From the NCBI RefSeq assembly GCF_024171815.1, contig NZ_JAMTCJ010000001.1, forward strand, positions 372,001-436,000: a DNA stretch of 64,000 nucleotides, in the 5' to 3' direction. Origin of the DNA: Williamsia maris. Its GTDB lineage: Bacteria; Actinomycetota; Actinomycetes; Mycobacteriales; Mycobacteriaceae. Position numbers and translations under genes: made by a program. The notes below the pieces were generated by a model. The model ran no database searches. It saw only the letters and a list, made by a program, of their open reading frames with translations, and had not been told where the DNA came from. Below are positions 11,014 to 15,798 of the stretch, piece after piece (the stretch's first letter is position 1; every line of letters begins with the position of its first letter).

Positions 11014-11859
11014 ATGAACGAGCAGACCGTTCGGGCCGCGATCGTCCAGACGTCGTGGACCGGTGACCGGGAGACGATGATCTCCGCGCACATCGACTAC
11101 GCACGAGAGGCCGCGTTGCAGGGCGCGCAGATCATCGGCTTCCAGGAGGTGTTCAACGCGCCGTACTTCTGCCAGGTCCAGGAGGAGAAGTACTACGCGT
11201 TCGCCGAGGAGATCCCCGGCCCCACCACCGACACCTTCTGCGAGCTGGCGCGCGAGCTGTCGATGGTGATGGTCGTGCCGATCTACGAACGCGAACAGGG
11301 CGGGTTCCTCTACAACACCGCCGTGGTCATCGACGCCGACGGCACCCTGCTCGGCAAGTACCGCAAGCACCACATCCCGCAACTGCCCGGGTTCTGGGAG
11401 AAGTTCTACTTCCGCCCCGGCAACCTCGGCTGGCCGGTGTTCGACACCGCCGTCGGCAAGGTGGGCGTCTACATCTGTTACGACCGCCATTTCCCCGAGG
11501 GCTGGCGCGCACTCGGTCTCGCCGGCGCGCAGATCGTCTACAACCCCTCGGCCACCAGCCGCGGCCTGTCGAGCTACCTGTGGAAGCTCGAACAACCCGC
11601 ATCGGCTGTCGCCAACGAGTACTTCGTCGCCGCGATCAACCGCGTCGGCGTGGAGGCGGAGTACGGCGACAACGACTTCTACGGAACCAGCTATTTCGTC
11701 GACCCCGAGGGGAAGTTCGTGGGCGAGGTCGGTTCCGACACCGACCCCGAGCTCATCGTGCGCGACCTCGACCTGGGCCTCATCGAGTCGGTGCGCAACC
11801 GGTGGGCCTTCTACCGCGACCGTCGCCCGGACGCCTACGGCCCGCTCACCGCCCCCTGA
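11014..11859 (+). CDS. Beta-ureidopropionase (nitrilase superfamily)
   Basis: Carbon-nitrogen hydrolase of 281 residues that would convert N-carbamoyl-beta-alanine to beta-alanine, CO2 and ammonia, the last hydrolysis of reductive pyrimidine breakdown. The Glu-Lys-Cys triad is visible: Glu in IGFQEVFNAPYF, Lys in LLGKYRKHHIPQ and Cys in VGVYICYDRHFPE. The close match of the CYDRHFPEGWR region to beta-alanine synthases, and the dihydropyrimidinase gene 32 nt downstream, support this over generic nitrilase or N-carbamoylputrescine amidase. The ATG at 11014 is chosen since MNEQTVRAAIVQTSW opens the fold. First gene of a four-gene cluster. Confidence 0.88.
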   Translation: MNEQTVRAAIVQTSWTGDRETMISAHIDYAREAALQGAQIIGFQEVFNAPYFCQVQEEKYYAFAEEIPGPTTDTFCELARELSMVMVVPIYEREQGGFLYNTAVVIDADGTLLGKYRKHHIPQLPGFWEKFYFRPGNLGWPVFDTAVGKVGVYICYDRHFPEGWRALGLAGAQIVYNPSATSRGLSSYLWKLEQPASAVANEYFVAAINRVGVEAEYGDNDFYGTSYFVDPEGKFVGEVGSDTDPELIVRDLDLGLIESVRNRWAFYRDRRPDAYGPLTAP

Positions 11860-11891
11860 CCTCCGCTCTCCTCGATCGAAGGGACACCCCA

Positions 11892-13313
11892 GTGCCGACG
11901 ACGTTCATCCACGGCGGGACGGTGGTGTCGACCACCGGCGCGCAACCCCTCGACGTCCTGATCTCCGACGAGACCATCGTCGCGGTCATCGCGCCCGGAT
12001 CCACCGTTCTCGGTGCCGATCTCGCGGCGAGCGCCGACCACTCCATCGACGCGACCGGGCGCTACGTGATCCCCGGCGGCATCGACGCGCACACCCACAT
12101 GGAGATGCCGTTCGGCGGCACGTTCGCCTCGGACACCTTCGAGACGGGCACCCGCGCCGCGGCGTGGGGCGGCACCACGACCATCGTCGACTTCGCCGTG
12201 CAGAACCCGGGGATGCGGTTGCAGGACACCGTCGCCGCGTGGCACGAGAAGGCCGCGGGCAACTGCGCCGTCGACTACGGCTTCCATCAGATCATCGGCG
12301 GCGTCGACGACGACTCACTGAAGGCGATGTCCGAGCTCGTCAGCGAGGGCATCACGAGCTTCAAGTTGTTCATGGCCTACCCCGGTGTCTTCTACTCCAC
12401 CGACGGCCAGATCCTGCGGGCGATGCAGTCCGCGGCCGAACTCGGCGCGCTGATGATGATGCACGCGGAGAACGGGATCGCGATCGATGTGCTGGTCGAG
12501 CAGGCCCTCGCCCGCGGTGACACCGACCCGATCTTCCACGGCACGTCGCGCGCCTGGCAGATGGAGGAGGAGGCCACCCACCGGGCGATCATGTTGGCCC
12601 ACCTGACCAAGACGCCGCTCTACGTCGTGCACGTCTCGGCCAAGCAGGCCCTGGAACAGATCGCGACGGCACGGGGCAACGGGCAGAACGTCTTCGCCGA
12701 GACGTGCCCGCAGTATCTGTACCTGTCCCTCGAGGAGCAGCTCGGCGCACCGGGTTTCGAGGGCGCGAAATGGGTCTGCTCGACTCCGCTGCGTCCGCGG
12801 GCGGAGGGACACCAGGACGAACTGTGGCGCTACATCCGCACCGGCGACGTGACGACCGTGGCCACCGACCACTGCCCGTTCTGCATGAAGGACCAGAAGG
12901 ACATGGGCGTCGGGAACTTCGCCAAGATCCCCAACGGCATCGGGTCGGTGGAACACCGGATCGATCTGATGTTCCAGGGCGTCAAGGACGGCAAGATCTC
13001 GCTGGAGCGCTGGGTGGACATCTGCTGCACGACACCCGCGCGGATGTTCGGCATGTACCCGCGTAAGGGCATCATCTCCCCCGGCGCCGACGCCGACGTC
13101 GTCATCTACGACCCGAACGGACACACCAGCATCGGCGTCGAGAAGACCCACCACATGAACATGGACTACTCCGCCTACGAGGGCTTCGAGATCGACGGCC
13201 ACGTCGACACCGTCATCTCGCGCGGGCGTGTCATCATCGACGACGGCGCGTACCACGGCGCCAGGACCCACGGCTCGTTCGTCAGACGCGGCCTGTCACA
13301 GAACCTGATCTGA
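11892..13313 (+). CDS. hydA: Dihydropyrimidinase / D-hydantoinase
   Basis: Zinc-dependent cyclic amidohydrolase of 473 residues that opens 5,6-dihydrouracil or dihydrothymine (and hydantoins). Metal ligands are visible in order: HxH in DAHTHMEM, the lysine expected to be carboxylated in SFKLFMAYPG, histidines in MMHAENG and VVHVSAKQAL, and the aspartate in ATDHCPF. The GTG at 11892 follows a gaaggga ribosome site, and VPTTFIHGGTVVS is the usual start of the family. It lies between beta-ureidopropionase and an F420-type oxidoreductase, which fits pyrimidine rather than hydantoin use. Confidence 0.92.
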   Translation: MPTTFIHGGTVVSTTGAQPLDVLISDETIVAVIAPGSTVLGADLAASADHSIDATGRYVIPGGIDAHTHMEMPFGGTFASDTFETGTRAAAWGGTTTIVDFAVQNPGMRLQDTVAAWHEKAAGNCAVDYGFHQIIGGVDDDSLKAMSELVSEGITSFKLFMAYPGVFYSTDGQILRAMQSAAELGALMMMHAENGIAIDVLVEQALARGDTDPIFHGTSRAWQMEEEATHRAIMLAHLTKTPLYVVHVSAKQALEQIATARGNGQNVFAETCPQYLYLSLEEQLGAPGFEGAKWVCSTPLRPRAEGHQDELWRYIRTGDVTTVATDHCPFCMKDQKDMGVGNFAKIPNGIGSVEHRIDLMFQGVKDGKISLERWVDICCTTPARMFGMYPRKGIISPGADADVVIYDPNGHTSIGVEKTHHMNMDYSAYEGFEIDGHVDTVISRGRVIIDDGAYHGARTHGSFVRRGLSQNLI

Positions 13314-13365
13314 CGGACACGAAACGCAGCGGAACTGGACCAGACGGCAGGTAGGGACCCAAGAC

Positions 13366-14406
13366 ATGGATTTCGGTGTTGTGCTGCAGTGCAATCCGCC
13401 TGCGTCGCGTGTGGTCGAGCTCGCGGTGCGGGCGGAGAACCTCGGATTCTCGCACGTGTGGACCTTCGACTCGCACCTGCTGTGGCAGGAGCCCTACGTC
13501 ATCCACTCGGCGATCCTGGCGGCCACCCGCAAGGTGATCGTGGGTCCGATGGTGACCAATCCGGCCACCCGGGACCCGACGGTCACCGCGTCGACCTTCG
13601 CGACGCTCAACGAGATGTACGGCAACCGCACGATCTGCGGGATCGGTCGGGGCGACTCGGCGGTGCGGGCTCTGGGCGGTTCGCCGACGACGTTGGCGAC
13701 GCTTCGCCAGTCGATCGAGGTCATCCGCGAGCTGGCCAACTCCCGCGCGGTCGACCACACCGGCAGCCGGGTCCGGTTGCCGTGGAGCACCGGGTCGTCG
13801 CTGGAGGTCTGGGTCGCCGCCTACGGCCCGAAGGCGTTGGCGCTCACCGGCGAGGTCGCCGACGGGTTCATCCTGCAGCTCGGCGATCCCGACATCGCCG
13901 CCTGGATGATCGAGAAGGTGCGGGCCGCGGCCGAGGCGGCCGGACGGGATCCGTCGACGGTCACGTTCTGCGTCGCCGCCCCCGCCTACGTCACCGCAGA
14001 CGACTCCCCCGAGGCCCTCGCCCACGCGCGCGATCAGTGCCGCTGGTTCGGCGGCATGGTCGGCAACCACGTCGCCGACATCGTCACCCGCTACGGCACC
14101 GACTCCGACGTCCCCGCCGCGCTCACCGACTACATCGCCGGGCGCACCGGCTACGACTACAACCGGCACGGCCGGGTGGGCAACAGCCACGCCGACTTCG
14201 TCCCCGACGAGATCGTGGACCGCTTCTGCCTGATCGGGTCGGCGCAGACCCACGTCCGGCGGCTGGCCGAACTCCGCGACCTCGGCGTCGACCAGTTCTC
14301 GATCTACCTGCAGCACGACGCGAAGTCGTCGACGCTCGAGGCCTACGGCGAACGCGTCATGCCCGCGCTGGCCGATCAGGTGACCGCGATCGACACCGCG
14401 ACATGA
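13366..14406 (+). CDS. LLM-class F420-type oxidoreductase in pyrimidine cluster
   Basis: Bacterial luciferase-like TIM barrel protein of 346 residues (MDFGVVLQCNPPASRVVELA start; FSHVWTFDSHLLWQEPY; ATRKVIVGPMVTNPATRDP; GIGRGDSAVRALGG). The pattern is that of the LLM branch close to methylenetetrahydromethanopterin reductase, which normally uses coenzyme F420; cofactor binding is inferred. It sits 52 nt after dihydropyrimidinase and 30 nt before an aminotransferase, in a cluster with no classical dihydropyrimidine dehydrogenase. It may therefore perform a redox step of pyrimidine or beta-amino acid breakdown; direct reduction of uracil is a hypothesis only. Confidence 0.85.
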   Translation: MDFGVVLQCNPPASRVVELAVRAENLGFSHVWTFDSHLLWQEPYVIHSAILAATRKVIVGPMVTNPATRDPTVTASTFATLNEMYGNRTICGIGRGDSAVRALGGSPTTLATLRQSIEVIRELANSRAVDHTGSRVRLPWSTGSSLEVWVAAYGPKALALTGEVADGFILQLGDPDIAAWMIEKVRAAAEAAGRDPSTVTFCVAAPAYVTADDSPEALAHARDQCRWFGGMVGNHVADIVTRYGTDSDVPAALTDYIAGRTGYDYNRHGRVGNSHADFVPDEIVDRFCLIGSAQTHVRRLAELRDLGVDQFSIYLQHDAKSSTLEAYGERVMPALADQVTAIDTAT

Positions 14407-14436
14407 GCATCGCCGGCGACGGAGGACACTGGGACC

Positions 14437-15798
14437 ATGGCTGACAATCACATCGACCCCGCGGCCGGAGCGCAGGTCCGCGCCGACGACCGCGCACACG
14501 TCTTCCACTCGTGGTCGGCCCAGGCCCACATCGATCCGGTGCCGATCGCCGGTGCGCAGGGATCGTGGTTCTGGGATTACGACGGCAACCGGTACTTCGA
14601 CCTCGGCTCGCAGATGGTCAACGTCAACGCCGGACACGGACACCCGGCCATCGTCGAGGCGATCTGCGAACAGGCCAGGATCCTGCCCACCATCTCCCCG
14701 GCGTTCGGCAACGACGTGCGCGGCGAGCTGGCGCGGCTCATCGCCGAGCGGGCACCGGGTGACCTCGACAAGGTGTTCTTCACCAACGCCGGCGCCGAGG
14801 CCAACGAGCACGCGGTGCGGATGGCGCGGGTGGTCACCGGCCGCTCGACCGTGCTGTCGATGTACCGCTCGTACCACGGGGCGTCCGGGACCACGATCGG
14901 TCTGACCGGCGACCCACGACGCTGGCGCGCCGAACCGACGGGCGGCGACGTCGTCCGGTTCTTCGGTCCATACCCGTATCGCTCACCGTGGGCGACCGAC
15001 TCGGTCGAGGCCGAGGCGGCCGCGGCGCTGGCGCATCTGCGGATGGTCGTCGAGCTGCAGGGACCGAACAGCATCGCCGCGATCATCATCGAGACGGTGA
15101 TCGGCACCAACGGTGTACTGGTCCCGCCGCCGGGATACCTCGCGGGCGTCCGCGAACTGTGCGACGAGTACGGCATCATCTACATCGCCGACGAGGTCAT
15201 GGTCGGGTTCGGACGTCTCGGGGAGTGGTTCGGCGTCAACGCCTTCGGGGTCACCCCGGACCTGATCACCTTCGCCAAGGGAGTCAACTCCGGCTACGTC
15301 CCGCTCGGCGGGGTGGTCATCGGATCGCGCGTGGCGCAGCACTTCGACGACGTGCCCTACCCGGGTGGTCTGACCTACAGCGGCCACCCGTTGGCGTGCG
15401 CCGCCGGCGTCGCGTCGATCAAGGCGTTCGAGGCCGACGGTGTCATCGACCGGGTCCGCGCCACCGGCGAGGACCTGATCCGGCCGACGCTGTCGAAGAT
15501 CGCGGCGAACCACCCGTCGGTCGGCGAGATCCGCGGGATGGGGTTCTTCTGGGCCATCGAGCTCGTCCGCAACCCGGAGACCCGGGAGGGGCTGGTCCCG
15601 TTCAACGCCTCCGGCCCCGACGCGGCACCGATGGCCGAGCTGATCGCGGCGTGCAAGGCCAAGGGCGTGTGGCCGTTCACGCACTTCAACCGGATCCACG
15701 TCGCGCCACCGCTGACCACGTCCGACGACGAACTGACCGATGCTCTGGCGGTCATCGACGAGGTGCTCGACCTCGCGGATGCGCACGTGGTGTCGTAG
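14437..15798 (+). CDS. Class III aminotransferase, likely beta-alanine/3-aminoisobutyrate type
   Basis: PLP-dependent omega-aminotransferase of 453 residues. Motifs in order: MVNVNAGHGHPAIVEAI, VFFTNAGAEANEHAVRMAR (phosphate-binding), YRSYHGAS, IIYIADEVMVGFGR (Asp that pairs with the pyridine nitrogen) and the Schiff-base lysine in ITFAKGVNSGYVPLGG. Following beta-ureidopropionase and dihydropyrimidinase, it would remove the amino group of beta-alanine or 3-aminoisobutyrate to give the semialdehyde. No semialdehyde dehydrogenase gene follows here. Substrate is inferred from context; the family call is firm. Confidence 0.9.
   Translation: MADNHIDPAAGAQVRADDRAHVFHSWSAQAHIDPVPIAGAQGSWFWDYDGNRYFDLGSQMVNVNAGHGHPAIVEAICEQARILPTISPAFGNDVRGELARLIAERAPGDLDKVFFTNAGAEANEHAVRMARVVTGRSTVLSMYRSYHGASGTTIGLTGDPRRWRAEPTGGDVVRFFGPYPYRSPWATDSVEAEAAAALAHLRMVVELQGPNSIAAIIIETVIGTNGVLVPPPGYLAGVRELCDEYGIIYIADEVMVGFGRLGEWFGVNAFGVTPDLITFAKGVNSGYVPLGGVVIGSRVAQHFDDVPYPGGLTYSGHPLACAAGVASIKAFEADGVIDRVRATGEDLIRPTLSKIAANHPSVGEIRGMGFFWAIELVRNPETREGLVPFNASGPDAAPMAELIAACKAKGVWPFTHFNRIHVAPPLTTSDDELTDALAVIDEVLDLADAHVVS

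Follow-up and report, generated by a model that had tools for sequence, protein, structure and literature searches.

The stretch analyzed here (the window) comprises 64,000 nucleotides of the Williamsia maris genome (contig NZ_JAMTCJ010000001.1, positions 372,001 to 436,000), and our subject is a gene cluster at window positions 11014-15798 that carries pyrimidine breakdown genes together with a luciferase-like (LLM) oxidoreductase. Four open reading frames lie there on the + strand, separated by gaps of 32, 52, and 30 bases, and their Pfam domains are, in order, CN_hydrolase, Amidohydro_1, Bac_luciferase, and Aminotran_3. The first (11014..11859, 281 amino acids) encodes a beta-ureidopropionase-like carbon-nitrogen hydrolase (PF00795, 241.8 bits), and the second (11892..13313, 473 amino acids, with a GTG start) a dihydropyrimidinase/D-hydantoinase (TIGR02033, 551.1 bits against a cut-off of 393.25). 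The LLM oxidoreductase follows (13366..14406, 346 amino acids) and belongs to the TIGR03842 family (578.2 bits against a cut-off of 295.45; PF00296, 231.4 bits). The last frame (14437..15798, 453 amino acids) encodes a class-III aminotransferase of the PRK06062 subfamily (NF004718, 689.4 bits against a cut-off of 472). A first-pass annotation had described a tight cluster with an LLM oxidoreductase in it, and this was confirmed by the open reading frames, which share one strand, and by Pfam and NCBIfam. No PreA/DPYD-type dihydropyrimidine dehydrogenase is encoded within the four-gene cluster. A consensus scan returned no promoter-like and one terminator-like site, which says nothing about the limits of the operon.

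The enzyme names given earlier stood for the dihydropyrimidinase, which scores over its cut-off, whereas the hydrolase and the aminotransferase could be placed at the subfamily level only. The best solved match of the dihydropyrimidinase is the D-hydantoinase 4kqn (470 bits). The hydrolase reached no NCBIfam cut-off, and its solved matches are nearly tied between 2vhh (Drosophila CG3027, 187.1 bits), which we take to be a beta-ureidopropionase, and the N-carbamoylputrescine amidohydrolase 5h8i (186.3 bits); the human-type beta-ureidopropionase 6ftq gave 175 bits. For the aminotransferase, the closest solved protein is the taurine:2-oxoglutarate aminotransferase 6jix (359 bits). We propose that the hydrolase would act on N-carbamoyl-beta-alanine and N-carbamoyl-3-aminoisobutyrate, and that the aminotransferase would be a beta-alanine/3-aminoisobutyrate transaminase.

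The LLM protein is a full member of TIGR03842 (F420_CPS_4043), matching model positions 1-329 of 329; this NCBIfam entry is a hypoth_equivalog, a named family without an assigned function. Its nearest solved sequences are those of the F420-dependent methylene-tetrahydromethanopterin (H4MPT) reductase Mer (E 5e-45 by profile, ~27% identity). The AlphaFold model is an LLM TIM-barrel (mean predicted local distance difference test, pLDDT, 86.8) whose best fold match in the PDB is Mer with F420 (E 5.5e-23), followed by F420-dependent alcohol and glucose-6-phosphate dehydrogenases (E about 3e-17). That the protein is itself a Mer was ruled out, as it scores 126.3 against a cut-off of 348.7 for TIGR03555 and 138.7 against 276 for NF002619, and the catalytic Glu6 is missing. 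We compared 14 TIGR03842 members, hand-picked to span the family: the position of Glu6 holds Val, Thr, or Cys in all 14, and Mer Asp96 aligns with Asp97 of the LLM protein, which is invariant in 14/14. According to the available text of PMC11094777, Glu6 is the catalytic residue of Mer and Asp96 sits at the pyrimidine ring of the pterin. Loss of the pterin-protonating acid together with retention of the pyrimidine-ring residue would be expected if a free pyrimidine had replaced the pterin. Candidate proton donors among the invariant residues are His235, His268, Asp35, and Tyr153; Asn234 is invariant in the 14 members as well. A further Mer position (position C) is given as Gln178 in the available text of PMC11094777 but is Asn at 178 when counted on the PDB sequence, and was not used as an argument.

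The W. maris genome (4.93 Mb, 5 contigs, 100% complete) was then searched as a whole. The search for a PreT-PreA or DPYD homologue that the first-pass annotation had proposed returned none by profile. The sole PF01180 match is the quinone-dependent dihydroorotate dehydrogenase PyrD (572 bits), which speaks against a dihydroorotate dehydrogenase-type enzyme elsewhere as the catalyst of the first step, and the best match to the PreA model NF006183 reaches 36.9 bits against a cut-off of 335, at the place of PyrD (E. coli PreA, used as a control, scores 688 bits). The absence of a dihydropyrimidine dehydrogenase, claimed at first for the cluster, therefore extends to the genome at the profile level. 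The RutA model TIGR03612 gave 26 matches genome-wide, the best at 126.5 bits against a cut-off of 498.3, and the LLM gene is not among them. Genes for CofD (386 bits) and Fgd (665 bits) are present, as are two genes over cut-off for methylmalonate-semialdehyde dehydrogenase (MMSDH), both outside the cluster, so that F420 and F420H2 can apparently be supplied and the final pathway step carried out.

The distribution of TIGR03842 was followed in two samples of Actinomycetota that share genomes, 118 from the class and 296 from the phylum; no rows were dropped from the contingency tables, and a partial dihydropyrimidinase in G074 was scored as a miss. The class sample contains TIGR03842 in 25 genomes, dihydropyrimidinase in 27, and both in 23 (23/25 vs 4/93; p 2.8e-18). 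The corresponding numbers for the phylum are 62, 87, and 59 (59/62 vs 28/234; Fisher p 1.4e-36), and the association is far beyond chance. Both genes lie within 15 kb on one contig in 48 of these 59 genomes; in the remaining 11, they are split between contigs (nine genomes) or lie 51 kb and 3.4 Mb apart (one genome each). TIGR03842 occurs without dihydropyrimidinase in three phylum genomes: the LLM gene of G255 and that of G332 lie on short contigs (7.4 kb and 6.0 kb) with the hydrolase beside them, and neither hydrolase nor dihydropyrimidinase was found in 14 kb around the LLM gene of G315. PreA over cut-off was found in none of the 118 class genomes, in 2/296 phylum genomes (G308 and G293), and in 0/62 of those with TIGR03842. 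The TIGR03842-negative G308 carries preT and preA homologues 1.3 kb from its dihydropyrimidinase (L172). CofD exceeds its cut-off in 156/296 phylum genomes, with at least 56 of the 62 TIGR03842 genomes against about 100 of the 234 others (p about 2e-12); the CofD match of G170 (E 2e-79) falls outside the matches listed.

We also compared 105 TIGR03842 loci, made up of 24 from the class sample (3.5-19.5 kb), 80 relatives, and the window. The 80 are the closest of at least 587 confirmed relatives found in a scan of species-representative genomes, so the counts from this set overstate independence and the genome samples are the fairer test. Thresholds of at least 50% identity for the dihydropyrimidinase and at least 45% for the aminotransferase were applied. 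A dihydropyrimidinase was present in 101 loci, the hydrolase in 98, and the aminotransferase in 54 (in the remainder it is less similar, and some of the loci are truncated), and no PreA or PreT above 150 bits was found in any of the 105. Hydrolase and dihydropyrimidinase are both present in 22 of the 24 class loci, dihydropyrimidinase alone in L041, which is a short contig, and neither in L033. In L071, L100, and L130, which also lack the dihydropyrimidinase, the LLM gene is less than 2 kb from the contig start, on the side where its partner is expected. Other recurring neighbors, counted from single-linkage clusters with one member annotated per cluster, are an ABC permease (71 loci), an NMT1/THI5-type binding protein (65), MMSDH (41, on the same strand in every case), and, on the opposite strand, a MocR/GntR-type regulator (48); none of these four is in the window cluster. 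Conversely, the genes that flank the window cluster, for a short-chain dehydrogenase/reductase (SDR) and a LysE-type exporter upstream and for a PF06983 protein and a MerR regulator downstream, were not seen among the annotated recurring neighbors of TIGR03842 loci.

The arrangement holds in more divergent loci. In L173, L185, and L186 (47-51% identity to the window LLM protein), the LLM gene is on the same strand as genes for hydrolase, aminotransferase, dihydropyrimidinase, and MMSDH, and every expected step save PreA is there, with the aminotransferase of L173 located 1.7 kb upstream of the rest. In L174 and L175 (45-46% identity), it lies ~6 kb from genes for dihydropyrimidinase, aminotransferase, and binding protein, which are on the other strand. 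Several variants were observed in addition. Five class relatives with large genomes (L048, L049, L050, L054, and L055) carry a second hydrolase copy and a more divergent aminotransferase (about 31-33% identity) upstream of hydrolase-dihydropyrimidinase-TIGR03842. In L034 (9489-10495, G094), a frameshift or an assembly error divides the TIGR03842 gene between two frames, with the rest of the cluster intact; this locus was left out of alignment A1, and alignment A2 was built from the window protein and 47 of the 80 relatives. Finally, in L170 (7254-9230, G016) and L171 (8108-11241, G196), a dihydropyrimidinase gene is followed on the same strand by a divergent LLM gene whose product has 29% and 34% partial-length identity, respectively, to the window protein and scores below the TIGR03842 cut-off; these genes possibly reflect the recruitment of another LLM lineage to a pathway of this type.

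Relatives were also found on twelve plasmid records, ten from Leisingera, one from Paracoccus, and one from Streptomyces. The Streptomyces record (L151) carries the genes for hydrolase, aminotransferase, and dihydropyrimidinase as well, all inside 6 kb. In Leisingera caerulea (NZ_CP081074) and Leisingera aquaemixtae (NZ_CP081034), TIGR03842 is the last gene of a cofG-cofH-cofD-cofC-cofE-npdG operon; directly divergent from it on both plasmids are genes for a pntA-pntB transhydrogenase, an aminotransferase, a Zn-dependent hydrolase, the dihydropyrimidinase hydA, and an NCS1 nucleobase:cation symporter. The stretches of 49 kb and 33 kb read from these two plasmids have no annotated PreA, nor are there purine-ring genes between the divergent units. 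Both TIGR03842 and dihydropyrimidinase were found in 7/10 Leisingera records by accession, and for the other three the genus counts agree (ten Leisingera records with either gene). A search of plasmid records with E. coli PreA showed no Leisingera among the 60 of 62 matches listed. In Roseinatronobacter, a member of the same order, an NAD(P)-dependent oxidoreductase, preA, TetR, a Zn-dependent hydrolase, and hydA stand in a row. Its hydrolase and hydA carry the same annotations as those of Leisingera, and a TetR gene of the same description flanks the Leisingera TIGR03842 gene, the likeness between the two genera being one of annotation. TIGR03842 appears to take, in Rhodobacterales, the place held by preA in a relative. 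The hydrolase of Leisingera is annotated as Zn-dependent and so differs in kind from the actinobacterial carbon-nitrogen hydrolase; inheritance of a single operon is therefore probably not the whole reason why TIGR03842 is coupled to dihydropyrimidinase. Paracoccus alcaliphilus plasmid p402633 (L149, 3587-10002) carries the same cofG-H-D-C-E-npdG-TIGR03842 operon, followed by ABC transporter and formate dehydrogenase genes. A small DUF1330 gene was also noted after the NCS1 symporter in Leisingera (L190, 17544-19386; L189, 29738-31580) and beside the Paracoccus cof operon (L149, 3083-3373).

In our judgment, the cluster most probably encodes reductive breakdown of uracil and thymine, with PreTA/DPYD replaced by the unrelated TIM-barrel protein TIGR03842 acting as an F420H2-dependent reductase. 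The replacement of the missing dehydrogenase by an LLM enzyme had been suggested from the W. maris sequence; it is now supported, albeit not proven, by the tie to dihydropyrimidinase across the phylum and by its recurrence in Alphaproteobacteria at the end of an F420 operon. TIGR03842 would reduce uracil or thymine by passing the hydride of F420H2 to C6 while C5 is protonated, to give dihydrouracil or dihydrothymine; the substrate, the cofactor, and the direction of this step are what we infer, along with the exact substrates of the hydrolase and the aminotransferase. F420H2 would probably be supplied by Fgd in W. maris and by NpdG in Leisingera. F420H2 has a slightly greater reducing power than NADPH, so uracil reduction should be favorable. 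The dihydropyrimidinase would then open the ring, the hydrolase would release CO2, NH3, and beta-alanine or 3-aminoisobutyrate, and the aminotransferase would form malonate or methylmalonate semialdehyde. MMSDH, encoded elsewhere in the W. maris genome and inside many of the homologous clusters, would complete the conversion to acetyl- or propionyl-CoA. Extended to the family, TIGR03842 is probably a widespread new class of dihydropyrimidine dehydrogenase, F420H2-dependent, with a luciferase-like fold and non-homologous to DPYD/PreTA, and Rhodobacterales such as Leisingera may keep F420 biosynthesis near pyrimidine genes mainly for its use.

Several observations speak against this proposal. 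The cluster by itself leaves the substrate unfixed, because enzymes of both kinds, D-hydantoinases as well as carbon-nitrogen hydrolases, are also used on hydantoins and other ureides. A true exception is G029 (locus L033), which has TIGR03842 but no dihydropyrimidinase over cut-off anywhere in the genome, and no dihydropyrimidinase lies in the 49 kb read of the P. alcaliphilus plasmid, which has the F420 operon with TIGR03842. Moreover, 28 of the 87 phylum genomes with dihydropyrimidinase lack TIGR03842, and 27 of these 28 lack PreA as well (only G308 has it), so enzymes of the dihydropyrimidinase family must serve further purposes or work with different partners as well. The link to F420 has gaps of its own: no CofD match was found in 4/62 TIGR03842 genomes, all fragmented assemblies (G227, G265, G276, and G355), the match in the TIGR03842-positive G296 is weaker and looks partial (E 4.6e-52), and the class sample shows no significant link to CofD (24/25 vs 76/93, p 0.12), as CofD is nearly universal there (100/118). 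The FMN monooxygenase SfnG, at rank 13 of the fold matches (E 6e-17), is almost level with the F420-dependent sugar dehydrogenases; only Mer is therefore clearly apart, and the fold points to Mer but does not prove the use of F420.

Among other explanations, we regard as unlikely, but as deserving some weight, that the chemistry is as proposed but the substrate differs. TIGR03842 would then use F420H2 to reduce a different unsaturated compound, either a cyclic ureide or a pyrimidine (a substituted uracil, an unsaturated hydantoin, or a derivative of purines such as yanthine), and the dihydropyrimidinase would open the reduced ring. A putative F420 enzyme of PF00296 has been proposed in place of YgfK/UacX as the yanthine reductase of Chloroflexota, in the available text of PMC12507026, and the binding protein found in 65/105 loci has an unknown ligand. 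The MMSDH and aminotransferase genes of the clusters point instead to beta-alanine and 3-aminoisobutyrate as products, and Leisingera combines a nucleobase symporter with an absence of purine-ring genes between the divergent units. Dihydropyrimidinase needs no uracil reductase when dihydrouracil comes from tRNA. With dihydrouracil from such other sources, TIGR03842 could act downstream of or beside the pathway, for example in the reduction of malonate or methylmalonate semialdehyde or in F420-dependent alcohol oxidation, and LLM relatives of known activity do include F420-dependent alcohol and glucose-6-phosphate dehydrogenases. We consider this improbable, since many clusters already have MMSDH for the semialdehyde, TIGR03842 stands beside dihydropyrimidinase in 101/105 loci and, in 54/105, beside an aminotransferase that reaches the 45% threshold, and the Rhodobacterales gene sits where a relative has preA.

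RutA is an LLM-fold oxygenase acting on uracil, and FMN monooxygenases are among the fold matches. A flavin monooxygenase of this type, opening or oxidizing the pyrimidine, is nevertheless very improbable here: the closest folds and sequences are those of the F420-dependent Mer, the gene ends an F420 biosynthesis operon in Leisingera and Paracoccus, and an oxygenase would leave the dihydropyrimidinase without a substrate. A RutA-type oxygenase was rejected on the basis of the TIGR03612 search and this gene context. The amidohydrolase finds its best solved matches in proteins named D-hydantoinase, and the hydrolase is equally near to N-carbamoylputrescine amidase, as would suit an operon for hydantoin or other amide utilization with the LLM gene as a bystander. 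To this we assign hardly any probability, as a bystander would not stay beside dihydropyrimidinase in so many loci or recur in another phylum with a hydrolase annotated as Zn-dependent; it was rejected on the basis of synteny. An unrelated reductase of unknown type, encoded elsewhere in the W. maris genome, may also perform the first step.

If the proposed role of TIGR03842 in uracil and thymine reduction is correct, the missing first step of pyrimidine breakdown would be filled in a large part of Actinomycetota, where PreA was over cut-off in 2/296 sampled genomes. A common orphan family would gain a function and F420 a new physiological role in bacteria. It would also be a non-homologous replacement of DPYD, a medically known enzyme that also clears 5-fluorouracil. 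If Leisingera uses F420 chiefly for TIGR03842, this would help to explain a whole F420 operon in a proteobacterium. Our literature search, mostly without subscription papers and without preprints, found no paper naming TIGR03842 and no published assay of uracil reduction by TIGR03842. In the available text of an F420 review (PMC8498797), the role of other luciferase-like hydride transferases (LLHTs) is listed as unknown, and uracil and hydantoin are not mentioned.

The W. maris cluster shares with the PreTA/PydA (DPYD) pathway the genes for dihydropyrimidinase, a ureidopropionase-type hydrolase, and aminotransferase, and the same products are expected. It differs in its first enzyme, an unrelated PF00296 protein in a genome with no PF01180 match but PyrD. 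The pathway logic is thus already known, and what is new is probably the non-homologous, F420-linked first enzyme. Mer is the closest solved relative in sequence and fold and has its Asp96 kept as Asp97, but it is set apart by the exchange of Glu6 in TIGR03842 and by scores below the Mer cut-offs. RutA likewise has the LLM fold and a pyrimidine substrate; it is an oxygenase, however, and its profile does not match the W. maris LLM protein. The ferredoxin-dependent PydA of Clostridium, as described in the available text of PMC7332683, also uses a variant electron donor for uracil reduction, but is still a PydA homologue with a dihydroorotate dehydrogenase domain, FMN, and ferredoxin domains. 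Finally, the available text of PMC12507026 describes for Chloroflexota a PF00296 protein standing in for a PydA-like/YgfK reductase before a PydB-like ring opener. That enzyme belongs to a uric acid pathway in another phylum, its role is also a proposal, and the likeness is one of description; it is the nearest precedent for the replacement proposed here.

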